Shown in pieces: positions 49,665 to 61,870 of a DNA stretch of 64,000 bases (position 1 is its first letter; each line of letters begins with the position of its first letter). The notes under the pieces were generated by a model that had not been told where the DNA came from, did not search any database, and saw only the letters and a program-made list of their open reading frames with translations. This DNA is from Thermosynechococcaceae cyanobacterium MS004. Lineage in GTDB: Bacteria; Cyanobacteriota; Cyanobacteriia; Thermosynechococcales; Thermosynechococcaceae. Location of the stretch: contig JAKRSB010000144.1 of assembly GCA_022402525.1 (NCBI GenBank), positions 1 through 64,000 of the forward strand, written 5' to 3'. Position numbers and translations under genes: made by a program.

Positions 49665-51968
49665 ATGGCCTCTTCCATCACCGCTGACCAAGTGCAAAGC
49701 ATTGTTGCCAACCAGCACCAAGACCCCTTTGACATTTTAGGTCCCCATCCCATCCAGCAAGAGGGGAAAGCTGCTTGGGCAATTCGAGCCTACCTCCCGA
49801 ATGCAGAATCTGCCACCGTGATCTGTCCAGGGCTGCGGTCTGAGTACCCAATGGAAGCCGCTCACCATCCTCATTTTTTTGAGTGCGTCATTGAGGGGGC
49901 AGAACCCCCAACCTATCAGCTGCGTATCCAGGAATCGGGCCATGAGCGGGTGATGTATGACCCCTATGCCTTTAAGTCCCCGCTGTTGACGGAATTTGAC
50001 GAGTATCTGTTTGCCGAGGGCACCCATCACCGTATCTACGAAAAGCTAGGGGCGCATCTAACCACCATTGAAGGGGTGCAGGGCGTCTACTTTGCAGTGT
50101 GGGCTCCCAATGCTCGAAATGTATCGGTGATTGGTGACTTTAACTACTGGGATGGCCGCAAACACCAGATGAGCAAAGGCTCAACCGGAATCTGGGTGTT
50201 GTTCATTCCAGAGCTAGGCGCGGGCGTCAGCTACAAGTACGAAATTAAAAACTCTGAAGGGCACATTTACGAAAAATCTGACCCCTACGGCTTTTATCAA
50301 GAAGTGAGGCCCAAAACAGCCTCCATTGTGGCCGATCTTGATGCCTATGACTGGCATGACTCCAACTGGCTGGAGGCCCGCCGAAAGACAGATCCGCTCA
50401 CCCAACCCATTTCGGTTTATGAGATGCATCTCGGCTCTTGGATGCATGGCGCAACGGACAACCCACCACGCCTTGAAAATGGGGAGACGGGCACCCCCGT
50501 CACGGTGTCTGAACTTAAGCCGTTTGCGCGATTTTTGACCTATCGGGAATTGGCCGATCGCCTCATTCCCTACGTCAAAGAGCTAGGCTTTACCCACATT
50601 GAAATGCTGCCCGTTGCCGAGCATCCCTTTGATGGGTCTTGGGGGTACCAGGTGACGGGCTACTACGCCTCCACCTCTCGCTACGGCACGCCTCAAGACT
50701 TCATGTACTTTGTGGATCAGTGCCACCAAAACGGGATTGGGGTAATTGTGGACTGGGTTCCGGCTCACTTCCCCAAGGATGGTCATGGCCTGCCCTTTTT
50801 TGACGGGACGCATCTTTACGAGCACGCAGACCCGCGCAAGGGGGAACACAAAGAGTGGGGGACGCTGATCTTCAACTACAGCCGCAATGAAGTTAAGAAC
50901 TTCATGATCGCAAACGCGCTGTTTTGGTTTGACAAGTACCACATTGACGGAATTCGCGTGGATGCAGTGGCGTCGATGCTGTATCTCGACTACAACCGCG
51001 ACCCTGGCACCTGGATAGCCAATGAGTATGGCGGTCGGGAAAATATTGAAGCGGCAGACTTTTTGCGGCAGCTCAATAACGCCATTTTTAACTACTTTCC
51101 TGGAGTGTTGGCGATCGCAGAGGAATCTACCACCTGGCCAATGGTGTCCTGGCCCACCTACGTGGGGGGACTCGGCTTCAACCTCAAGTGGAACATGGGC
51201 TGGATGCACGACATGCTGGATTACTTCCATATGGATCCGTGGTTTCGCCAGTTCCATCAAAACAACGTCACCTTCAGCATCATGTATGCCTTCACCGAAA
51301 ACTTCATGCTGGCGCTCTCCCATGATGAAGTGGTGCATGGCAAGAGCAACATCATTGGCAAAATACCGGGAGACACCTGGCAAAAGATGGCGAATATGCG
51401 CTGTCTCTACACCTTCATGTTTACCCATCCCGGCAAAAAGACTCTCTTTATGGGCATGGAATTTGGACAGTGGAGCGAGTGGAATGTGTGGGGCGACTTA
51501 GAGTGGCACCTCCTAGAATACGAACCCCATCGGCAGCTCAAGCGCTTTATGGCCGATCTCAACAAGGTCTATCGGAGCCAGCCTGCGCTGTACACCCAAG
51601 ACTTTTCTAACGCTGGGTTTGAGTGGGTGGACTGTAGCGACAACCGCCACAGCGTCATTTCGTTTTTACGCTGGGCAAAAGAAAGCGGTGAACTCATTTT
51701 GACGGTCTGCAACTTTACGCCCCAGCCCCACAGCCACTACCGCGTCGGCGTGCCAAAGCCTGGATTTTATACAGAGGTGCTTAACAGCGACGCCCGTGAG
51801 TATGGGGGCAGCAATATGGGCAATCTGGGCGGCAAATGGACAGAAGAATGGTCTTTCCACAACCGACCCTATTCCCTAGATCTATGCCTGCCTCCTTTAG
51901 CTGCGGTGGTGTTTAAGCTAGATGTCCAAAAAAGTCAGGCGGCTTTAGATCAGGCGGCTGAAGCTTAG
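49665..51968 (+). CDS. glgB: 1,4-alpha-glucan branching enzyme
   Basis: 767 residues, GH13 family 9. Makes alpha-1,6 branches in glycogen. N-terminal CBM48 modules (DPFDILGPHP; GVYFAVWAPNARNVSVIGDF), then the TIM barrel with HIEMLPVAEHPFDGSWGYQ, GIRVDAVASMLYLDY (nucleophile Asp), AEESTTWP (acid Glu) and ALSHDEVVHGK. C-terminal beta domain ends near VVFKLD. Full length. Its stop overlaps the convergent exonuclease stop in CTTAG. Confidence 0.97.
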   Translation: MASSITADQVQSIVANQHQDPFDILGPHPIQQEGKAAWAIRAYLPNAESATVICPGLRSEYPMEAAHHPHFFECVIEGAEPPTYQLRIQESGHERVMYDPYAFKSPLLTEFDEYLFAEGTHHRIYEKLGAHLTTIEGVQGVYFAVWAPNARNVSVIGDFNYWDGRKHQMSKGSTGIWVLFIPELGAGVSYKYEIKNSEGHIYEKSDPYGFYQEVRPKTASIVADLDAYDWHDSNWLEARRKTDPLTQPISVYEMHLGSWMHGATDNPPRLENGETGTPVTVSELKPFARFLTYRELADRLIPYVKELGFTHIEMLPVAEHPFDGSWGYQVTGYYASTSRYGTPQDFMYFVDQCHQNGIGVIVDWVPAHFPKDGHGLPFFDGTHLYEHADPRKGEHKEWGTLIFNYSRNEVKNFMIANALFWFDKYHIDGIRVDAVASMLYLDYNRDPGTWIANEYGGRENIEAADFLRQLNNAIFNYFPGVLAIAEESTTWPMVSWPTYVGGLGFNLKWNMGWMHDMLDYFHMDPWFRQFHQNNVTFSIMYAFTENFMLALSHDEVVHGKSNIIGKIPGDTWQKMANMRCLYTFMFTHPGKKTLFMGMEFGQWSEWNVWGDLEWHLLEYEPHRQLKRFMADLNKVYRSQPALYTQDFSNAGFEWVDCSDNRHSVISFLRWAKESGELILTVCNFTPQPHSHYRVGVPKPGFYTEVLNSDAREYGGSNMGNLGGKWTEEWSFHNRPYSLDLCLPPLAAVVFKLDVQKSQAALDQAAEA

Positions 51969-52792
51969 GCTTTTGGGGTTGGACTCTTTGGGGTTGAACC
52001 TGCCGAGGTGGCGGTTTGAGGATTGGCCTCACAGATCCGCTCTACATCGATCCGACGATAGGATGGATTGCTGCGATACCTCGAAGACCGGGGCCTCGCG
52101 CCCTGGGCTTCAAGAAGTTTTCGGGCTTCGGCTGCGCTACGGTTCATGAGGGTGGCGGCCTCTGAGAGCTGAAGCCACTGGTTTCCCAACCGATTCACCA
52201 GGGTTTCATCATCCTCACTATTGAGTTCGCTCAGGAGCCGCTGCGCCAGAAGCCAGCAGGCTAGGGTGTCCGCCTCTGCTCGGTGCGATCGCCCCACCTC
52301 AAACCCAAAGTGCTGCACCAGATCGCTCAGCTTTCGGGAGGGTAGGTCTGCCAGCATCAGCCGCGCCAGCTTGACCGTACAGAGCTGTTGGCTGGCCGGG
52401 CGCTCAAAGACCTGCCCCAGTCGTCCATACTCTGCCTTCAAAAATCCGTAGTCAAACGTGAGGTTATGGGCAGTCAGCACATGGCTGGACAGGGGTTCCC
52501 AGTAATGGGGTAGCACCTCAGCGGTAGAGGGGGCAGGCTGCACCATCGTTGAAGTGATGCCTGTAAAGCGTGTGATCTCAGGGGGAATGGGCACCCCAGG
52601 ATTAATTAGATCCGTTTTCTGAAAAAGGATACCGTCCTTGAGGCTAGCGTGCAGGACAGCAATTTCAATAATGCGGCTAGTTTGAGCCGACCCGCCCGTG
52701 GTTTCGACATCCACAATTGTGAGGGGAAGCTGGCTGATCTGGCGGTAGTGGGCAATCAGCTTGGCAGAGGAGGGTGAGGCGGAAGAGGACAA
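51965..52792 (-). CDS. DnaQ-like 3'-5' exonuclease
   Basis: 275 residues. Exo I motif TIVDVETTGG (near 25-34) with the metal-binding Asp-x-Glu; Exo II in LTAHNLTFDYGFL; Exo III HRAEADTLACWLL (H-x4-D). This is the DEDDh subgroup, as in DNA polymerase III epsilon and PolC proofreading domains. A C-terminal segment (LNRSAAEARKLLEAQGARPR) and a basic/Ser tail are extra to the fold. Start TTG 52792, immediately after an in-frame TAA, is the earliest possible. Confidence 0.9.
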   Translation of the reverse strand: MSSSASPSSAKLIAHYRQISQLPLTIVDVETTGGSAQTSRIIEIAVLHASLKDGILFQKTDLINPGVPIPPEITRFTGITSTMVQPAPSTAEVLPHYWEPLSSHVLTAHNLTFDYGFLKAEYGRLGQVFERPASQQLCTVKLARLMLADLPSRKLSDLVQHFGFEVGRSHRAEADTLACWLLAQRLLSELNSEDDETLVNRLGNQWLQLSEAATLMNRSAAEARKLLEAQGARPRSSRYRSNPSYRRIDVERICEANPQTATSAGSTPKSPTPKA

Positions 52793-53094
52793 CGTCTTTT
52801 AGGCTCAAATAGTAGGGTCGAGTCGTCGACGAGAATGCTTAGGAAGGAAAAGGCTCAGAAAGCAAAGGGTTCAGAAAGCAAAAAACTCAGGAAGAAGGAG
52901 ACTTAAAGAAAGGCTACGCATCTATCTAGCAGAGCTTGCCGTGCTGGTGCAGTAGCGATCGCATTCTGCTAGGTGTTTGTTCTGATAGGAGTGCCACAGG
53001 GGGAGATGCTACCCTGCTGAAAGCATTATATCTCCGCCGATCGCCTCTGCCTGCTCGGCACCGTTTACCCTTTTACCCTCTGCCTTACTAAACC
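52793..53094. other. Intergenic region with 16-base repeat
   Basis: 302 bases, no gene. (G/A)(C/T)TCAGAAAGCAAA(G/A)(G/A) is repeated at 52853-52868 and 52869-52884, with a partial third copy to 52894. Between the exonuclease start and the hydrolase start, so it should hold both divergent promoters. Confidence 0.7.
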
Positions 53095-54039
53095 ATGGCG
53101 TTTTATCAGCACGATAGTCAGCTTGCCGCTCAAGCCCAGACCGTTCTGGATCAGACTTGGGCAAAGTTTCCCTGGCTGGCGCGCAACCAGCTTGCCCTAA
53201 CTTGGCTGGTTTACGATCCACCCTTTCTGACCAATACAGGGGGCGCACTGACGGCGGCGGAATTTTGGAAACATCCGGTGCGAGGCTTTGACTATCGAGG
53301 AGTAGAGCCTATCTATCCGGCGAGCGTGGTGAAACTGTTTTACTTAGTCGCTAGCCATGAGTGGCTAGAGAAAGGCATGATTCAGCCGTCACGAGAGCTG
53401 AATCGCGCCCTACAGGACATGATTGTGGATTCCAGTAATGACGCGACAGCCTACGTGGTGGATGTCCTCACGGGCACAACGGGTGGCCCGGAACTCCCGT
53501 CTGCCCCCTTTGAAACCTGGAAAGTGCAGCGCAATATTGTCAATCGCTACTTTCAGGGGCTGAATTGGGTGGAGCTAGAAAGTATCAACGTGAATCAGAA
53601 GACCTGGGGCGATGGCCCCTACGGCCGAGAAGATGAGTTTGTAGGCAAAAATCGCGAGAATCGTAATATCCTGACGACGGATGCGACAGCCCGTCTTCTG
53701 CACAGCATTGTGGGAGGCGTTGCGGTCACACCAGGGCGATCGCAGGCCATGATGGAGCTGACATACCGCAGTCTAGACCCAGAACTGCTAGAGTCTGACC
53801 CCGAAAATCAAGTGGTGGGGTTTATTGGGGGCGGTTTACCCGTAAACGCTCAGGTCTGGTCAAAGGCAGGCTGGACCAGCACAGTACGTCATGATGCAGC
53901 CTATGTAGAGCTTCCTGGCAAGCATCCCTATCTGTTGGTCGTCTTTACGGAGGGGAAACAGGCCAGCATCAGCGAAGAGGTGATTCCTTTTGTCTCCGCC
54001 AAGATTGCGGAAGCAGCACCCTTGAATTTAGCGGGCTAA
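53095..54039 (+). CDS. Serine hydrolase of the class A beta-lactamase fold
   Basis: 314 residues. Active-site motifs: S77-V-V-K80 (SxxK), S114-N-D (SxN position), and K257-A-G (K[ST]G position, with Ala instead of Thr/Ser). No N-terminal signal peptide is seen. The KAG variant and lack of export signal suggest it is not an ordinary antibiotic-degrading lactamase but a related amidase/esterase; this is inference. Confidence 0.82.
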   Translation: MAFYQHDSQLAAQAQTVLDQTWAKFPWLARNQLALTWLVYDPPFLTNTGGALTAAEFWKHPVRGFDYRGVEPIYPASVVKLFYLVASHEWLEKGMIQPSRELNRALQDMIVDSSNDATAYVVDVLTGTTGGPELPSAPFETWKVQRNIVNRYFQGLNWVELESINVNQKTWGDGPYGREDEFVGKNRENRNILTTDATARLLHSIVGGVAVTPGRSQAMMELTYRSLDPELLESDPENQVVGFIGGGLPVNAQVWSKAGWTSTVRHDAAYVELPGKHPYLLVVFTEGKQASISEEVIPFVSAKIAEAAPLNLAG

Positions 54040-54148
54040 CGCATCAAACTAACCCATCGGGAATACTCGATAAGACTGAATTTATTTCACTGTGTTAAGG
54101 GAGCGAGCGCAGCCGTCCATGATTATCGTGAGTTCGATGATCTGCTTG

Positions 54149-54239
54149 AAGCCCCTCACCCCAAACCCCTCTCCCGAAGGCGAGGGGCTTAAAATTCTTG
54201 ATTCTTCATTACTCCTCCTTCTTTCAGAGGAGAAGGAGG
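54149..54239. repeat. Intergenic repeat with two hairpins
   Basis: AAGCCCCTC (54149-54157) pairs with GAGGGGCTT (54182-54190), enclosing CACCCCAAACCCCTCTCCC; CCTCCTTCT (54214-54222) pairs with AGAAGGAGG (54231-54239). The C-rich CCCCTCACCCCAAACCCCTCTC core resembles a repeat common in cyanobacterial intergenic DNA. Lies between the convergent hydrolase and psaK genes and may end both transcripts. Confidence 0.7.
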
Positions 54240-54312
54240 CCGGAAAGACGAGGGGCAGTTGATTTTTGTCGAATTCACTTGTGATGAGATCCGACCGCTC
54301 CCAAAATCGAGG

Positions 54313-54576
54313 CTATAGACCCCCTGATGCCCGCAAGCCTAGAATCATCCCTGCGCCCAAAATATGACCAAAGCTTGTAGTGGCCAAGAGTTCCGGCACG
54401 CCAAACCCTTGTAAAATTCCGGGCAGATCAGCGGGAAGGTTTGGCCCTTGCCCTTTATGCTGAATTGCATAGCGACCAATAAAAAAAGCAAAGGTATTGC
54501 ATAAAATCATGATAATACCCACCTGAATCGTCCAGTTTTGTAAGGATGGAGCGACGGTCATCAAGGTAGTGTGCAT
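54313..54576 (-). CDS. psaK: Photosystem I subunit PsaK
   Basis: 87 residues from ATG 54576. The start is decided by AGGAG at 54590-54586: it overlaps the upstream ATG at 54585 but stands nine bases before 54576. Two membrane helices, VGIIMILCNTFAFFIG and SFGHILGAGMILGL, the second matching PsaK closely. Peripheral light-harvesting subunit of photosystem I that binds chlorophyll. Single psaK in this window; cyanobacteria often have a second, stress-related copy. Confidence 0.93.
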   Translation of the reverse strand: MHTTLMTVAPSLQNWTIQVGIIMILCNTFAFFIGRYAIQHKGQGPNLPADLPGILQGFGVPELLATTSFGHILGAGMILGLRASGGL

Positions 54577-54773
54577 AAACAGCATCTCCTAAAATTTTAT
54601 AAAACAAAGAACTTAAGGACGATCAGCACCATGAGTATGAGCACTACGAGGTTCCCATACCGTGACCTAATCCATGATCCGGTTCAGAACAATGTCAGGA
54701 TTATAAAAATCCATTGTCCCTAAATGACGTTTGTTTGAAAGAGTTAACATTACCGCTGACCTGAAGAACGCCT

Positions 54774-55490
54774 GTGTTAAACGCTCCTGCTACGCCTCCT
54801 CAAGCGATTTCCCATCCCCTGCGCATCAAGATTTGTGGACTGATGCAGAAGGAGCAGGCCAAGGCGATCGCCCTATCCGGTGCGGATGCGCTGGGCTTTA
54901 TCTGTGTGCCTGACTCGCCTCGATACCTTGAGGCTTCAGCCATCCGTACAATTGTGCAGGAGTTGCCTGCCCAAACCCTTCAGGGTAAACCCCTTGCAAC
55001 TCTGGGAGTCTTTGCCAATGCAGCCCTAGAGGACATTGTGAAATCGGTCAAAGTGGCTGGCCTGACTGGGGTTCAGCTTCATGGACAGGAATCCCCAGCG
55101 TTTTGTCAGGCGCTCCGTCAGGCGCTCCGTCACGCATTGCCAACCGTTGAGCTGATTAAAGCCTTTCGGGTGAGAAGTGCAGAAACGCTCCAAGAAACCG
55201 CTGCCTATGGGGATACGGTGGACGGCCTTTTACTAGATGCCTATGCTCACAGCGCATTAGGCGGCACTGGAGAAGCCTGGGACTGGTCTTTAGTCAAAAA
55301 TTTTCAGCCTGAACTGCCCTGGTTTTTGGCGGGTGGACTGACGCCGTTTAACGTTCGGATCGCCTTGCAGCAAGCGAACCCTTCTGGCATTGACCTGTCG
55401 AGCGGGGTGGAGCGATCGCCAGGAGATAAGGATTTAACCTTGGTGCAGGCGCTATTTCAAGCGTGCCGTCTGGAGCCGCGCCCTTCCTAG
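54774..55490 (+). CDS. trpF: Phosphoribosylanthranilate isomerase
   Basis: 238 residues from GTG 54774. Third step of tryptophan synthesis. IKICGLMQKEQA with the catalytic Cys, GADALGFICVPDSPRYL, GVQLHG and FLAGGLTPFNV and GIDLSSGVE are the family motifs. A duplicated QALRQALRHAL (12-base units at 55107-55118 and 55119-55130) sits in a surface helix, so the repeat was tolerated in frame. Divergent from psaK. Confidence 0.93.
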   Translation: MLNAPATPPQAISHPLRIKICGLMQKEQAKAIALSGADALGFICVPDSPRYLEASAIRTIVQELPAQTLQGKPLATLGVFANAALEDIVKSVKVAGLTGVQLHGQESPAFCQALRQALRHALPTVELIKAFRVRSAETLQETAAYGDTVDGLLLDAYAHSALGGTGEAWDWSLVKNFQPELPWFLAGGLTPFNVRIALQQANPSGIDLSSGVERSPGDKDLTLVQALFQACRLEPRPS

Positions 55491-55510
55491 CTGCACTATT
55501 CCCGCACAAA

Positions 55511-55540
55511 AAATCCCCTGTGCTAAAAGTCAGGGGATTT
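55511..55540. terminator. Bidirectional terminator
   Basis: Perfect 10-bp stem AAATCCCCTG / CAGGGGATTT with a 10-base loop, A-run on the left and T-run on the right, just after trpF and before the end of the convergent gene. Confidence 0.9.
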
Positions 55541-55572
55541 GAAAGTATGAATGAACCCAGCGAAGGAAAATC

Positions 55573-56328
55573 TTAGCGATAGCTCACTTCAAAGTCTCGA
55601 CTGAGGCGAAGGTCTAGATCTCGGTTGGGATAAATGACGACCAAATCTCGTCGTGCCCTCGTATCTCGATCAAAGAGCCCACCGAGGATGCCTGAATCGG
55701 TTCGCCCCGATCGACCCAGCAACGTACCCAAGATAACCAAGGCCGCAGGGGAAAGATTGGGATTTCCGAAGATTTGATCATCGCGATCATAGCGATCGCG
55801 GGTATCCACCAAATCAGAAACCGCATCGATATTTTGGCGACCACCGTTCCGCAGCGTCACGTACTGAGACTCAAATCGATACCCTCGTCTGTAGGGCACC
55901 AGTTCCCCATAGATGGTGCTGCCCCGTGGTATGACGATGCGATCGCCCCGATCAGAGCGCAAATTTTGTGACGTAATTAGCTGGTAAGCATACTGTTCTC
56001 CTCGGCGCAGAACCAGGCGACCTCGGCGCTCAGCACGGGTCGGGATTGCAGTTCCCGAAGAGAGGCGCAGTCTGCCGCGTCGTCCGTCTCGGTCATTTCT
56101 CCAGCCTCGGTCATCTCTCCAGTCTCGGTCATTCTTCCAGTCTCGGTCATTTCTCCAGTCTCGATCATCAACTCTAATCGGCCAACTTTGAGCAATGGTC
56201 TCGCGACCTTTGTATTGACTGGCTTGATTGGCGGTGGCCATTGATGCGCTCATCGTCAGCGTGGACAATACGCTGCTGATTGCCAACCCTGCCGCCATCG
56301 TAGATTGAAAAATGTTTCGGCGACTCAT
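55573..56328 (-). CDS. Exported basic protein with Arg/Asp/Trp repeats, unknown
   Basis: 251 residues from ATG 56328 (AGGAAG eight bases ahead; the frame is open to 56442). Signal peptide AAGLAISSVLSTLTMSASMA. After it a stretch of RDWRND-type hexapeptide repeats (about residues 50-80) coded by an 18-base tandem repeat, then a globular region with GTAIPT, VIPRGSTIYGEL and RYDRDDQIFG. Rich in Arg. I do not recognise the family. Secreted or periplasmic. Confidence 0.7.
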   Translation of the reverse strand: MSRRNIFQSTMAAGLAISSVLSTLTMSASMATANQASQYKGRETIAQSWPIRVDDRDWRNDRDWKNDRDWRDDRGWRNDRDGRRGRLRLSSGTAIPTRAERRGRLVLRRGEQYAYQLITSQNLRSDRGDRIVIPRGSTIYGELVPYRRGYRFESQYVTLRNGGRQNIDAVSDLVDTRDRYDRDDQIFGNPNLSPAALVILGTLLGRSGRTDSGILGGLFDRDTRARRDLVVIYPNRDLDLRLSRDFEVSYR

Positions 56329-56867
56329 GGTTTTCTTCCTATTCTGATTCCGATTCAATAGATGTCTAAATGATGTCAACTCGTGCATAAAAAATTTGAA
56401 GCACCAGCACCTTAAATCCAGGAATATATCTGGATAAGTCAATGCAGATGTTCCGAGAAGCTGAAGCCCTTCCTTTCTTTCACCTGACGCAAGATTGAGT
56501 CATGATGTTTCCAGCCTCATGTCCAGGGCATTCGGGGTTTATGTAACGCTTTATTGCAAGTCTATCGATGGAGTGCGCGCTCTAGGCAGGCGCATGAACA
56601 GGACTTCTATGGATTGCTCTATCTATGCTCTATATATAGATCAAGACCCAGTAAAAGTATCGCTCTTAAAACTTTTGTGCGGCCCTTTACTTGTTCCCAA
56701 AGATGCAGTCAGCAACTCAGACCAAGCCTAAACTCTGAACTGTAAAGCGAGGTTGACTTCTTGATGTCTAGCTCTCGAATCAAAACCAATGCTTTCGGTT
56801 GATATTGTCTTGTAATCAGATTTTCTTGTAATCAGATTTTAAATTGCTAAGTAAGTGTTTTTATACA
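56329..56867. other. 539-base divergent intergenic region
   Basis: Frames of 60-80 codons at 56495-56745 on plus do not look coding (no ribosome site, no family pattern). A TA-rich imperfect palindrome TCTATATATAGATC lies around 56630-56643. A perfect 16-base duplication closes the region (separate entry). It must contain the promoters of both exported-protein genes. Confidence 0.45.
56809..56840. repeat. Perfect 16-base duplication upstream of an exported-protein gene
   Basis: CTTGTAATCAGATTTT at 56809-56824 and again at 56825-56840, no mismatch. It lies 27 bases before the ATG at 56868. Confidence 0.92.
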
Positions 56868-58070
56868 ATGATTCTTTTAAAGCATTTCTTGCCTACAGTA
56901 TTACTTTCTATTCTTTTGCCCACCGTGGGCGTCAATGCCCAGACTCAGCCAACCATTGCTCCTCAGGCGATCGCTGAAGTTCAGGAAAAAGAAGAACCCC
57001 ATCCCATCCCATCCCTTGGCCCGCAGGAGAAGAAAGCGCCAGAGACAACAGCACTAGAGACGACCACACTAGAAACAACAACACCAGAGACGACAGAAGC
57101 GGTGGCGGCTGACTTACTCCCCAATGGACAGCAGGCCGTGACAGATCCGACTCAAGCACTTTCCAGCCTGCCGTTAGGGTTGGATGGCGCGAGCTTTAAT
57201 GTGCAGAGCTTTAATGAGCCTCGTGCTGATGCAACAGACTCTGCAACGCTAGGCCCCCTAGAGCCTTTTGGCCAAAGTCCTGCAATTATTGCACAAGGCG
57301 CAGATACCCCTTCCGAGCCAGCGGGACTAGCGCCTAGCTTACAAACAGAGCCTTCCACACCCGACCAAAAGCCGTTTATTCCCGCCATTCAGCTCACTCG
57401 GCGCTCCGTTCGCTACAGTCCCAGCATCACCTTACTCACGCCGTCTGGCTACGGAAAGTCCTGGGGACAGGTTTCAATTGGCGGCAGTTTTCAGAGTCGG
57501 GCACGGTTTGTGACCGAACCTGATGGTGCCTTTGGGGTAGGGTTTGGCCTTGGAGATAGCCGCAAGTGGGTTGGCCTGGACGTGGGCATTTTTGTGGCCG
57601 ATGTCACGAACTTCAGTCGAGGGGGCGTTGGGTTTAAGCTCCATCGCCAATTTCCCAATCAGCTCGCGATCGCTGTGGGGGTGAACAATGCTTTAACCTG
57701 GGGCAACATTGATGGCGGCATTAGCCCCTATGGCGTGGTCAGCAAAGGATTTCAGCTCCGAGAAAACACTCGACTGCCCCTGAGTCAGCTCTATATTTCT
57801 GCTGGAGCCGGAACCGGACGCTATCGCTCAGAAGATGATGTGGCCAATCAGCGAAATGCCGTGGGTGCCTTTGGCAGCGTGGCGCTTCGGCTGGTGCAGC
57901 CCGTTAATTTAATTGCGGAGTGGTCTGGACAGGATCTCAGCCTTGGCTTCTCAATTTTGCCGTTCCCTAGACTTCCCATCGTCATTTCCCCCTTTGTGAC
58001 GGATATTACCGGTAGCGCTGGAGACGGCCCCCGATTTGCCTTTAGCGTAGGGATGGGGTTTACCTTCTAA
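56868..58070 (+). CDS. Predicted outer-membrane/secreted beta-rich protein, unknown
   Basis: 400 residues from ATG 56868. Signal peptide MILLKHFLPTVLLSILLPTV cut near NAQ. Residues about 50-85 are a Thr/Glu repeat (TTLETTTPETTE) from a tandem duplication; the next 100 residues are Ala/Pro/Gln-rich and disordered. From about residue 185 alternating polar/hydrophobic strands with many Gly (GKSWGQVSIGGSFQSRARF; FGVGFGLGDSRKWVGLDVGI) and a final Phe (GMGFTF), the pattern of an outer-membrane beta-barrel. Followed after 103 bases by the CHAT gene on the same strand. Confidence 0.7.
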   Translation: MILLKHFLPTVLLSILLPTVGVNAQTQPTIAPQAIAEVQEKEEPHPIPSLGPQEKKAPETTALETTTLETTTPETTEAVAADLLPNGQQAVTDPTQALSSLPLGLDGASFNVQSFNEPRADATDSATLGPLEPFGQSPAIIAQGADTPSEPAGLAPSLQTEPSTPDQKPFIPAIQLTRRSVRYSPSITLLTPSGYGKSWGQVSIGGSFQSRARFVTEPDGAFGVGFGLGDSRKWVGLDVGIFVADVTNFSRGGVGFKLHRQFPNQLAIAVGVNNALTWGNIDGGISPYGVVSKGFQLRENTRLPLSQLYISAGAGTGRYRSEDDVANQRNAVGAFGSVALRLVQPVNLIAEWSGQDLSLGFSILPFPRLPIVISPFVTDITGSAGDGPRFAFSVGMGFTF

Positions 58071-58173
58071 GCCTTTTTTCCGTCTATCTCTGGGCGATAC
58101 CCATTACGCCCATTTGAACGTTTTCCTACTTAAATAAACTGCCCATTTAAACGCTTTAGCACTAAAAACTTCT

Positions 58174-59898
58174 ATGAAATGCTCAAAATACTCAAGCAGT
58201 AAAGCATCAAAATCTTGCCTTGGTCTGCTGGCCGCCCTAAGCCTGGGTTTATTTTCAACGGTGGCGATCGCCCAAACTGAAGGCGGCGAAGGCTCTCCCC
58301 CCCCTGTCCCACCCTCCCTACAGCACGATATCTCTACCCCATCGGACTATGGCCCTCAGCACGACAACTCCAACCCTTCGGATCTGGGGCCATCCAGCCC
58401 CGATAGAGGGAGTGGAGACAGAAATTTACAGTCAACCATTGACTCTGGCAACCCAGCAGAAATCATTACCCAGGTAGAAGTCAGCCAGTCCACGGAATAT
58501 GCAAACCACTTTGGCTTCAACCTTTATGGCGAAAACGCCAGCGCCGAAACCATCGCCAATACGCTACAACAGCTCGCCAGTAAAACGGGTGTTAAAGCGG
58601 CACTGATATACGTGGTGGAAACCCCCAAGGGCCTTGGCCTGACCCTAGTTTTGCCCAGCGGCTCTGTCCAAACCTCAAGCTCACAGGTGATTCCTCAGAA
58701 CCTGAAGCTGGCTGCGAACCCATTTGCTGCGAACCAATTTGCTGCGAGCCCATTTGCCGCGAACCCTTCCGCCACTAACCTATTGAGGACTAATCCCTTC
58801 AACCTCGTGGCGCTTATTGCGTCCCTTCGGCCAAACCTCCAGCTTGCGCAGCAAACATCTCCCCCCACGGGTAACAGCAACCTCGCTTACCGCCTGATTC
58901 CAGACGCAACACCCAGCGCAGTAAAGCGCGTGGTGAGGAACTTCCGGCGCGAGCTTTCTGACCCAACAAAAGTTGCGAGAAACAACTATCAAGCTCCGGC
59001 CAAGACCCTTTACGACTGGATTATTGCACCCCTCAAGCCTGCGCTAGAGGCCAACAATATTGAAACCATTGTCTTTAGCCTAGACAGGGGCTTTCGCTCG
59101 GTACCTGTCGCCGCACTGTTTGACGGACAGAAATTTCTGGTGGAGCAGTATAACCTCGCGCTCATTCCCAGCTTTAGCCTGACGGATACCCGCTACCAGA
59201 GGCTGCAAGAGAGCAAAATGCTGGGCATGGGTATTTCCCAAGCAACTGGAGGGCAGACCCCATTACCGTCCGTGGCCGTTGAGGTGCCCACCCTCACGTC
59301 TAAAATTTGGGGCGGCACGGGCTATCTGGATCAGCAGTCAACCATTGCCCAATTTCAGGCCCTTACTCAGCAAGAGCGGTTTGGCATCATCCATCTTGCA
59401 ACCCACGCACTTTTTAATCCAGGAAAGGTGGAGCAGTCTTACATTCAGTTTTGGAATGAGCGGCTCACATTGCCGCAGCTTCGGGAAATTTCTCTGAATC
59501 AAAAGTGGACCTCTGCACCCAATATTGAACTGCTGGTGCTCAGCGCTTGCCAGAGCGCCTTGGGCAATGACCAGGCTGAGCTTGGCTTTACGGGGCTGGC
59601 GGTGCAGTCTGGGGTTAAAACAGCGGTGGGTAGCCTCTGGTCGGTCAGCGATGAGGGCACCTTGGGGCTGATGAGTGAATTTTACCGAGGGCTGAAGACG
59701 GCTCCAGTACGGGCAGCAGCACTGCGGCAGGCTCAGTTGGGGCTACTTCAGGGGCAGGTGAAGGTGGTGGATGGCCAACTTCAGCTCAAGGATGGAACTT
59801 TGGTGCCCTTGCCCGCTGCGGCTGCACAGCAGAAAAATGTGAGTTTCACCCATCCTTACTACTGGTCAGCCTTTACGATGATTGGCAACTGGAATTAG
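58174..59898 (+). CDS. Exported CHAT-domain (caspase-like) protein
   Basis: 574 residues. Signal peptide (LGLLAALSLGLFSTVAIA) followed by a Pro/Ser/Asp-rich spacer and, at 180-199, five-residue repeats (A-A-N-x-F type) from four 15-base units at 58711-58770. The CHAT domain fills about 265-570: catalytic His H411 in HLATHALF and Cys C459 in LSACQSALG, both present, plus GSLWSVSDEGT and a final HPYYWSAFTMIGNW. CHAT proteins are cysteine peptidases related to caspases; an exported one next to a beta-barrel-like protein is notable. Confidence 0.85.
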   Translation: MKCSKYSSSKASKSCLGLLAALSLGLFSTVAIAQTEGGEGSPPPVPPSLQHDISTPSDYGPQHDNSNPSDLGPSSPDRGSGDRNLQSTIDSGNPAEIITQVEVSQSTEYANHFGFNLYGENASAETIANTLQQLASKTGVKAALIYVVETPKGLGLTLVLPSGSVQTSSSQVIPQNLKLAANPFAANQFAASPFAANPSATNLLRTNPFNLVALIASLRPNLQLAQQTSPPTGNSNLAYRLIPDATPSAVKRVVRNFRRELSDPTKVARNNYQAPAKTLYDWIIAPLKPALEANNIETIVFSLDRGFRSVPVAALFDGQKFLVEQYNLALIPSFSLTDTRYQRLQESKMLGMGISQATGGQTPLPSVAVEVPTLTSKIWGGTGYLDQQSTIAQFQALTQQERFGIIHLATHALFNPGKVEQSYIQFWNERLTLPQLREISLNQKWTSAPNIELLVLSACQSALGNDQAELGFTGLAVQSGVKTAVGSLWSVSDEGTLGLMSEFYRGLKTAPVRAAALRQAQLGLLQGQVKVVDGQLQLKDGTLVPLPAAAAQQKNVSFTHPYYWSAFTMIGNWN

Positions 59899-60010
59899 TG
59901 GAGTTGAGCCGGAACTAAGGTGCGGTGGATAGCTGGTGGCGCTTGGTGCCTAAGCTGTTGGCTTCCAAGATAGGGCAAAATGACTAACGGACGTTTCATA
60001 AATAGGCCGG

Positions 60011-61870
60011 ATGCCAACTCTGCCCCATTGGAAATTTATACCCCCCAAGAACCTTCGTAAGCGCCTTTCCCAGCCGCGCTTTTTGTGGACACTCTCTCTG
60101 GGCTGGATTTTAGCGATCGCAGGTCTGACCCTATTCTGGGGCATCGGTGACATTGGCCTCATCGACGAAACCGAACCGCTGTTTGTGGAAGCCTCTCGCC
60201 AGATGCTGCTCACGGGAGACTGGGTGACGCCCTACTTTGACGGGGAAACCCGCTTTGATAAGCCCCCGCTCATTTATTGGCTGATGGTGCTGTGCTTTAA
60301 GCTATTTGGCGTCAGCGAGTGGGCGGCGCGTCTCCCTTCAGCGATCGCGGCGGTGGGTATTGTGGTGTTCTGCTATTGGGTACTGAAGAATCACCATCCG
60401 TTGCTGAGTCCCATCATAGGGGCCACAAATGGGGCAAAAAATACATACACCTTTAAGCGTCCTTGGCTGGCAGCTTGGCTGGGGGCATCGGCGCTGCTGC
60501 TTAACCTCAACACTTACTTTTGGGGGCGGACGGGCTATGCCGACATGCTGCTGCTGGCCTGTCTGGGGGGAGCTTTACTGGCGTTTTTTATGGGCTACGC
60601 CCAGCCAAACCCCACGCTTCAGGGACGATGGTATACCGCGTTCTATGGACTGACGGGCCTTGCAATTCTGACCAAAGGGCCAATCGCGCTGCTGCTGCCG
60701 GTCGCCATTATTTTCTGCTTTACGCTTTATTTGGGCAATATGCGTCAGGTTTGTCAGGAACTGCGGCTGCTGCGCGGGGGACTGATTGTCGGAGCCTTAG
60801 CCGTGCCCTGGTATGTGCTGGTGACGATCGCCCACGGGGATGACTTTTTGGGGTCATTTTTTGGCTATCACAACCTAGTGCGCTTTTCGAGCGTGGTCAA
60901 TCAGCATTCTGGGCCTTGGTATTTTCACTTCCTCGTTATTTTGGCGGGATTTTTTCCTTGGTCTGCCTATCTTCCCGCAGCGCTGTATCGGGTCAAGCCT
61001 TGGCAAAGGCAGCGGTGGCAGGCGCGATCGCGTTCTGAACAGCTAGGACTGTATGCATTGATTTGGTTTGTGGTCATCCTCGGCTTTTTTACCGTTGCCG
61101 TGACCAAGTACTTTAGCTACACCCTGCCCCTAATGCCAGCGGCAGCCATTCTGGTCAGCTTGCTGTGGACAGAAGATATCTGCGATTTGCCTGTTCCGCA
61201 GAGCCGATGGAGTCTAAACGGCTGGAATCTAAACCTCTGGGACTTGAGTCGCTGGTTCAATGTAGCCTTGCTGGGAGTAATGGCCTGGGCACTGTTTTCC
61301 TGTGCCCCTTGGCTGTCTAGCGACCCTTGGATGCCAACTCTGGGCAGTCGGATGGCAGCGGCGGGTCTGCCGCTGATGGGGGGGCTGGTTTGGGCCCTAG
61401 CCGCCTTTGCAGCAGTCCTCTGTATTCTGCTGCGGCGCAATAGTCTATGGCTGGTGAATGCGATCGCATTTTTGCTGTTTCTTGTTGTCTTCTTGCATCC
61501 GACGGTTAGCCTCGTTGATGAAGTGCGACAGCTCCCCCTACGGGATATGGCTAAAGCAGCGATCGCAAATCAATCCCCTCCAGCAGCAGATCAATCCGAA
61601 CCTCAACCAGAAATCCTGATGATTGGGTTTCGCAAGCCTAGTCTCGTGTTTTATACCCAACAGCATGTGGAGTATCTAGAACAGCCTCAGCAGCTCCAGC
61701 CCTATCTCAATGGCTCAGCCGCCAAGAGTCAACTCATCATCACCACACCGCAGCTTCTGGCTGAAACGGGCCTCCAGCCAGCCCAGTACGAAACCATTCA
61801 AAACGCTGGCGTCTATACCCTCATCCGGACACCCATCCGGACACCCATTCATACACCCACCCGCCTCTAG
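60011..61870 (+). CDS. GT39/ArnT-like membrane glycosyltransferase
   Basis: 619 residues. Starts with the PMT/ArnT pattern: FWGIGDIGLIDETEPLFVEASRQML and GETRFDKPPLIYWLMVLCFK, with the conserved DE and DKPP, then about ten membrane helices. Transfers a sugar from a polyprenyl-phosphate carrier to lipid or protein outside the membrane. The C-terminus ends in IRTPIRTPIHTPT from three 12-base units (61823-61858), probably dispensable. Confidence 0.88.
   Translation: MPTLPHWKFIPPKNLRKRLSQPRFLWTLSLGWILAIAGLTLFWGIGDIGLIDETEPLFVEASRQMLLTGDWVTPYFDGETRFDKPPLIYWLMVLCFKLFGVSEWAARLPSAIAAVGIVVFCYWVLKNHHPLLSPIIGATNGAKNTYTFKRPWLAAWLGASALLLNLNTYFWGRTGYADMLLLACLGGALLAFFMGYAQPNPTLQGRWYTAFYGLTGLAILTKGPIALLLPVAIIFCFTLYLGNMRQVCQELRLLRGGLIVGALAVPWYVLVTIAHGDDFLGSFFGYHNLVRFSSVVNQHSGPWYFHFLVILAGFFPWSAYLPAALYRVKPWQRQRWQARSRSEQLGLYALIWFVVILGFFTVAVTKYFSYTLPLMPAAAILVSLLWTEDICDLPVPQSRWSLNGWNLNLWDLSRWFNVALLGVMAWALFSCAPWLSSDPWMPTLGSRMAAAGLPLMGGLVWALAAFAAVLCILLRRNSLWLVNAIAFLLFLVVFLHPTVSLVDEVRQLPLRDMAKAAIANQSPPAADQSEPQPEILMIGFRKPSLVFYTQQHVEYLEQPQQLQPYLNGSAAKSQLIITTPQLLAETGLQPAQYETIQNAGVYTLIRTPIRTPIHTPTRL

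Follow-up and report, generated by a model that had tools for sequence, protein, structure and literature searches.

In the 64,000-nucleotide stretch of DNA analysed here (the window; Thermosynechococcaceae cyanobacterium MS004, contig JAKRSB010000144.1), a gene for an exported, predicted 12-stranded outer-membrane beta-barrel lies directly upstream of one that encodes an exported protein with a CHAT peptidase domain. Neighbouring copies of the two were counted at 15 distinct loci, which represent four or more families. The reading that we favour, with a probability of about one half, is that the barrel exports or anchors a tagged protein encoded by its downstream neighbour, the CHAT protein being one such cargo. 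Computation gave a barrel fold, an intact CHAT dyad, conserved adjacency of the two genes, a single clade of CHAT-linked barrels, and barrel-linked tags that are specific to clades. If the favoured reading is true, protein traffic across or onto the outer membrane of cyanobacteria, which is poorly known, gains a candidate cargo and a candidate address tag, a CHAT protease is assigned a non-cytoplasmic location and a definite partner, and the protein COP23 gains a genomic context. The barrel family, which has no name, is present in about a third of the sampled cyanobacterial genomes.

Organisation of the locus

An earlier note on this DNA had described three neighbouring genes for exported proteins, two of them unrecognised. 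All three ORFs are present (Table 1), and each product, as judged by eye from the sequence, starts with a hydrophobic segment followed by an AxA-type site, in agreement with the export claimed. The ATG form of the barrel ORF opens with a typical signal peptide; residues of this protein are counted here from the in-frame TTG. The end of the barrel gene and the start of the CHAT gene are 103 bases apart. Neither the barrel protein nor the basic protein matched a Pfam or NCBIfam family over cut-off. Between 51965 and 61870, the barrel gene is flanked by genes for an exonuclease, for a beta-lactamase-like protein, for PRAI and PMT_2, and for the basic and CHAT proteins.

Table 1. Positions of genes and features at the barrel-CHAT locus of the window.
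Feature	Position	Strand	Basis and remarks
Basic exported protein gene	55573-56442	-	ORF call
Exported outer-membrane barrel protein	56868..58070	+	ORF; ATG start, in-frame TTG at 56844
Low-complexity linker after signal peptide	56928..57398	+	About residues 29-185, predicted disordered
Predicted 12-stranded beta-barrel domain	57456..58067	+	About residues 205-408, AlphaFold2; C-terminal Phe
Exported CHAT protein, predicted protease	58174..59898	+	ORF; PF12770 2.3e-64; adjoins barrel in 15 distinct loci
CHAT signal peptide	58174..58272	+	Residues 1-33, AIA/Q site; read from sequence, homologues alike
Putative degenerate tag counterpart, HDISTPSDYGPQHDNSNPSDLGPSSPD	58324..58404	+	CHAT residues 51-77; alignment position and resemblance
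CHAT catalytic domain	58990..59889	+	Residues 273-572; Csx29 fold match Z 26
Catalytic His411 codon	59404..59406	+	Invariant; aligns with TPR-CHAT His motif
Catalytic Cys459 codon	59548..59550	+	Invariant; aligns with TPR-CHAT Cys motif

Conservation of the barrel-CHAT pair

The pair 56868-59898 is conserved across genomes. In each of the eight genomes of the same family that have a close homologue of the barrel, the best match to the CHAT protein lies directly downstream of it (8/8). Pairs were found in Acaryochloridaceae and the rest of the window's family, in Xenococcaceae, and in three further sampled families (f32, f39 and f41), one of which may itself be Xenococcaceae. A tree built from 77 barrels places all 15 that have a CHAT gene downstream in one group (support 92/81, present in 94% of bootstrap trees). 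The CHAT tree, which needs two changes, does not show the barrel-linked CHATs as a single clade, and this is a point against export of the CHAT by the barrel. Divergence of barrel and CHAT is correlated among the pairs (r 0.92), a value of limited weight because any two co-inherited genes are expected to show the same. An exported CHAT with an outer-membrane partner, as the earlier note had imagined it, is thus supported by 15 loci, by a single barrel clade, and by a COP23 gene upstream in 11 of the 15. The pair also passed both checks proposed in the earlier note, joint conservation of the neighbours and alignment of the catalytic residues.

One pair lies on a contig labelled Candidatus Gracilibacteria (L091:8686-10802), with the CHAT split into two ORFs; the contig is probably a mislabelled cyanobacterial one. 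A decayed pair, consisting of a 96-residue barrel end and, after it, a CHAT fragment of 197 residues, is present in an Aphanocapsa MAG (L076/L106) and looks like a joint loss of the two genes in progress; Hormoscilla perhaps has one more decayed copy. In seven Acaryochloris loci (L079, L081, L082, L084, L085, L086, L088) the gene order is beta-lactamase-like protein, Ser/Thr kinase, COP23, barrel, CHAT, of which the window retains the first and the last two. Since the beta-lactamase-like gene (53095-54039 in the window) is also near the pair in Acaryochloris, the region appears inherited.

Fold of the barrel protein

The protein of some 400 residues, called beta-barrel-like in the earlier note, was predicted by AlphaFold2, with 24 homologues, to form a 12-stranded barrel (408 residues in all). 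The strands lie within residues 209-407, where pLDDT is mostly above 85. Its last residue is Phe, a frequent ending of outer-membrane proteins. The best structural matches were FapF (Z 18.1 over 194 residues), KdgM (17.2), a COG4313 channel (16.6) and NalP (15.8), FapF and KdgM being tied by the own rule of the comparison tool. That the nearest fold of the predicted model is, in this tie, a polypeptide exporter would argue for export; because the other member of the tie is a sugar porin, the fold does not demonstrate it. Identity to FapF in the structural alignment is 14%, and a profile of the barrel searched against PDB sequences did not retrieve FapF up to E 10, nor did it link any solved structure by sequence.

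The part preceding the barrel is predicted to be disordered over residues 28-159 (pLDDT below 50), and it gave no family match; as the confidence of the prediction is low, this part may yet include a folded passenger domain of the classical autotransporter kind (type Va). In some homologues (for example L072), SLH domains precede the barrel in the linker part, and this suggests that the pre-barrel part may face the periplasm.

The CHAT protein

Residues 273-572 are covered by the entire PF12770 profile (positions 1-289 of 289), and CHAT is the sole Pfam match of the protein, with neither a TPR nor a TPS domain. H411 and C459, which the earlier note had named as catalytic, are invariant in alignments of 10 barrel-linked CHATs and 8 diverse cyanobacterial CHATs, and in comparison with Craspase TPR-CHAT, whose structure is solved, they coincide with its His and Cys motifs. 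The structural model has a mean pLDDT of 60, with a poor N-terminus; its residues 77-574 match Csx29 and TPR-CHAT, with Z up to 26. We infer from these resemblances that the window protein is a protease. Nine CHAT genes are present in the window's genome, several of the others beginning with a signal-peptide-like segment, and exported CHATs are not unusual in cyanobacteria.

Surface processing or cell death had been proposed as the role of such a protein. The former is possible. A surface or envelope cell-death module with the exported CHAT as executioner would make use of the caspase-type fold and its intact dyad, but it is highly improbable: the analysis found nothing to support it, no toxin, inhibitor or regulator pattern was detected, export takes the CHAT away from cytoplasmic targets, and at related loci its place is taken by proteins other than proteases.

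Many partner proteins of the wider barrel family share N-terminal tags

Barrels of this family occur in 138 of 388 cyanobacterial genomes. Where CHAT does not follow, the next gene usually encodes a small protein that is exported and has no clear Pfam family. The mature chains of many of these small partners, and of six barrel-linked CHATs, open with a tag, N-x-S-D-[IV]-[TS]-G-[PT]-N. Examples are PPNQSDITGTN and AQTGNQSDVTGP for small partners; the six CHATs have AQSGNQSDVTGPNP (L150), SQTGNMSDVTGPNP (L090), FSDITGPNP (L092), GNQSDNTGPD (L091), GNQSDITNSD (L142) and GNMSDITLPS (L143). CHATs of Acaryochloris have QSDIN or QSDVN, repeated in some. Several proteins carry octapeptide tags in tandem, such as NQSDVTGP-NLSDVTGP-NLSDVTGP, and the copies vary mostly at synonymous sites, otherwise mainly at the free second position. 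In a barrel clade of nine, the partners of all nine contain repeats of another kind, S-K-G-x-A-G-S-x-S-G, found in none of 65 other partners (the regular expression was made after the sequences had been seen). Three of these observations favour export: exported small proteins sharing the tag of the CHATs occupy the downstream slot of other barrels, the variation of the tag repeats is biased to synonymous sites, and the type of tag differs between barrel clades.

The 388 genomes were searched with a DNA pattern that encodes N-x-[ST]-D-[IV]-[ST]-G-[TP]-N. It gave 29 matches in 16 genomes, 25 of them directly downstream of a barrel, where a rough estimate of chance expectation is about 0.001; the pattern had been drawn up after some loci were read, and 13 of the 25 come from seven unread genomes, a part of which are closely related to genomes already read. 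The other four matches fall in ORFs that are 11 to 80 residues long and not gene-like, and the reversed pattern, used as a control, gave eight scattered matches. With a profile trained on the non-CHAT partners and scored at the 99% background level, the tag was found in 8 of 15 barrel-linked CHATs versus 0 of 12 others (rank test, p 3e-5). Both results speak for the favoured reading, as do the conserved adjacency of the pair, the single barrel clade and the COP23 gene upstream.

About half of the barrel-linked CHATs thus have no scoring tag, and the window CHAT is among them. By way of EDTTSPNPSEIVPSNPSGD in a relative, the segment HDNSNPSDLGPSSPD of the window protein suggests a diverged counterpart of the tag. 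In other barrel clades, many partners have no definable tag. One tagged CHAT (GGQSDVTAPNPLEIL; L047, G045:C52) has no barrel upstream, and the fragmented genome that it comes from yielded none either. Untagged CHATs, undefined tags and this solitary CHAT all speak against export, as does size: a 12-stranded pore would pass an unfolded chain only, and CHAT is large.

The barrel could also be an ordinary porin or structural outer-membrane protein, with neighbours that are merely co-expressed and a tag that acts as a general anchor or matrix motif without binding to the barrel. The fold fits the porins KdgM and NanC almost as well as it fits FapF, the tag is only a short motif, and some barrel loci stand beside polysaccharide genes. 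We nevertheless regard this as distinctly unlikely, in view of a tag that is nearly confined to the gene after the barrel and whose type tracks the barrel clade.

Two minor observations concern these loci. In L065, L067, L068, L072, L096, L100 and L102, the barrel and its small tagged protein are often found by ABC transporter, glycosyltransferase or polysaccharide-type genes, as judged from sequence starts only. The last loop of the barrel (57999-58040 in the window, about residues 386-399) is DITGxAGDG in clades whose partners have SD[IV]TG tags and DLTDNSxGG in the clade with SKGxAG-tagged partners; the loop may resemble or co-vary with the partner tag, and this could be chance.

A possible export or display route

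In the favoured reading of export or anchoring, the Sec-exported 12-stranded barrel would be produced jointly with a partner, likewise Sec-exported, whose gene comes next downstream. The barrel would recognise this partner through its disordered N-terminal segment, and would either move it through the outer membrane or fix it there. The partner slot would be occupied in most cyanobacteria by a small protein, its function unknown and its start often marked by short repeated tags. One old barrel lineage would have a CHAT protease there instead, whose site of action would then be the cell surface or the inner side of the outer membrane. As the window tag is largely decayed, recognition in the window would rest on the diverged segment. 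Tag recognition and transport or anchoring are inferred. More broadly, and more tentatively, with some doubt on our side, these loci may represent an undescribed cyanobacterial route of export or display, in which a POTRA-less 12-stranded barrel recognises cargo encoded next to it by N-terminal tags that differ between lineages and are often tandem, N-x-S-D-[IV]-T-G-P being one of them, and a CHAT protease is among the cargoes. The open-licence literature yielded no paper that joins CHAT with an outer-membrane barrel and none that describes the tag.

The pair would work like dedicated exporter-cargo systems, and we assign it to none of them. FapF, the amyloid exporter of Pseudomonas, is a plugged 12-stranded barrel; besides this exporter, the Fap set comprises the cargo FapB/FapC and FapD, a Sec-exported cysteine protease that the system needs (PMC5557850). 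The window locus is similar in its 12-stranded barrel, with FapF as best structural match (tied with KdgM), in its disordered pre-barrel linker, in its dedicated exported neighbours, and in that its genes include a Sec-exported cysteine protease. It differs in that no sequence similarity was detected, the cargo tag is another one, the protease is a CHAT rather than a C39 enzyme and sits in the cargo slot, and neither amyloid subunits nor a coiled coil, such as the trimeric FapF has in the periplasm beside its helical plug, were seen; Pfam found no C39 protease of the FapD kind and no amyloid subunits among the flanking genes 51965-61870.

The Fap parallel can be turned the other way, with the CHAT as a processing protease of the periplasm whose N-terminus docks it to the barrel. 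There it would cleave the barrel linker, COP23 or another exported protein in the manner of FapD, a cysteine protease with a different fold. Fap does require a periplasmic cysteine protease beside its 12-stranded barrel (PMC5557850), the barrel here carries a long disordered linker, and COP23 is also found beside trypsin-like proteases (5/34 loci). We hold docking to be somewhat unlikely, however, as the CHAT occupies a slot and bears a tag that in sister barrels belong to non-proteases.

Export or anchoring of a tagged neighbour may also be set against other systems. Csx29 and Craspase TPR-CHAT (PDB 8eex, 7y84) share with the window protein the caspase-fold CHAT, the His/Cys dyad and a preceding domain (Z up to 26), whereas the window CHAT is exported and has no TPR match, and its partner is an outer-membrane barrel, not a CRISPR effector. 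In curli, the cargo CsgA is thought to be addressed by the N-terminus of its mature chain to the lipoprotein CsgG, which assembles into a large multimeric channel; the N-terminal cargo address is alike, but the barrel here is a single-chain one of 12 strands. Two-partner secretion (type Vb) likewise has a neighbouring barrel and an exported cargo with an N-terminal address, and our pair resembles it in both. Here, however, the barrel lacks POTRA (no Pfam match) and has 12 strands, not 16, and the cargo is without the haemagglutinin-type TPS domain, CHAT being its sole Pfam match.

Other neighbours of the pair

Of the three-gene neighbourhood originally described, barrel and CHAT stand as a conserved pair, and the basic protein drops out. 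Relatives of the latter occur in 52 of 58 genomes, and, among the matches listed in pair-bearing relatives, they lie on other contigs or, in G019, at least about 200 kb away. A three-gene unit including the basic protein was ruled out, the family being widespread and not linked to the pair. The basic protein gave a weak VirB10-like match.

The basic gene occupies, in the window, the position that COP23 (PF14218) holds in relatives. COP23 is a circadian oscillating membrane protein, known chiefly for its day-night rhythm, and we know of no role for it in export. Its gene lies immediately upstream of the barrel in 11 of the 15 barrel-CHAT loci, versus 1 of 62 other barrels having it within three genes (p 2e-9). 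This conserved neighbour of the pair is missing from the window locus; five COP23 genes are present elsewhere in the window's genome, among which the L184 copy is closest to the COP23 of a relative (54%). COP23 may be a companion of exported proteases generally: the trypsin-like proteases that it adjoins (L112, L224-L227) are exported ones, and a further case is L148:6959-9095.
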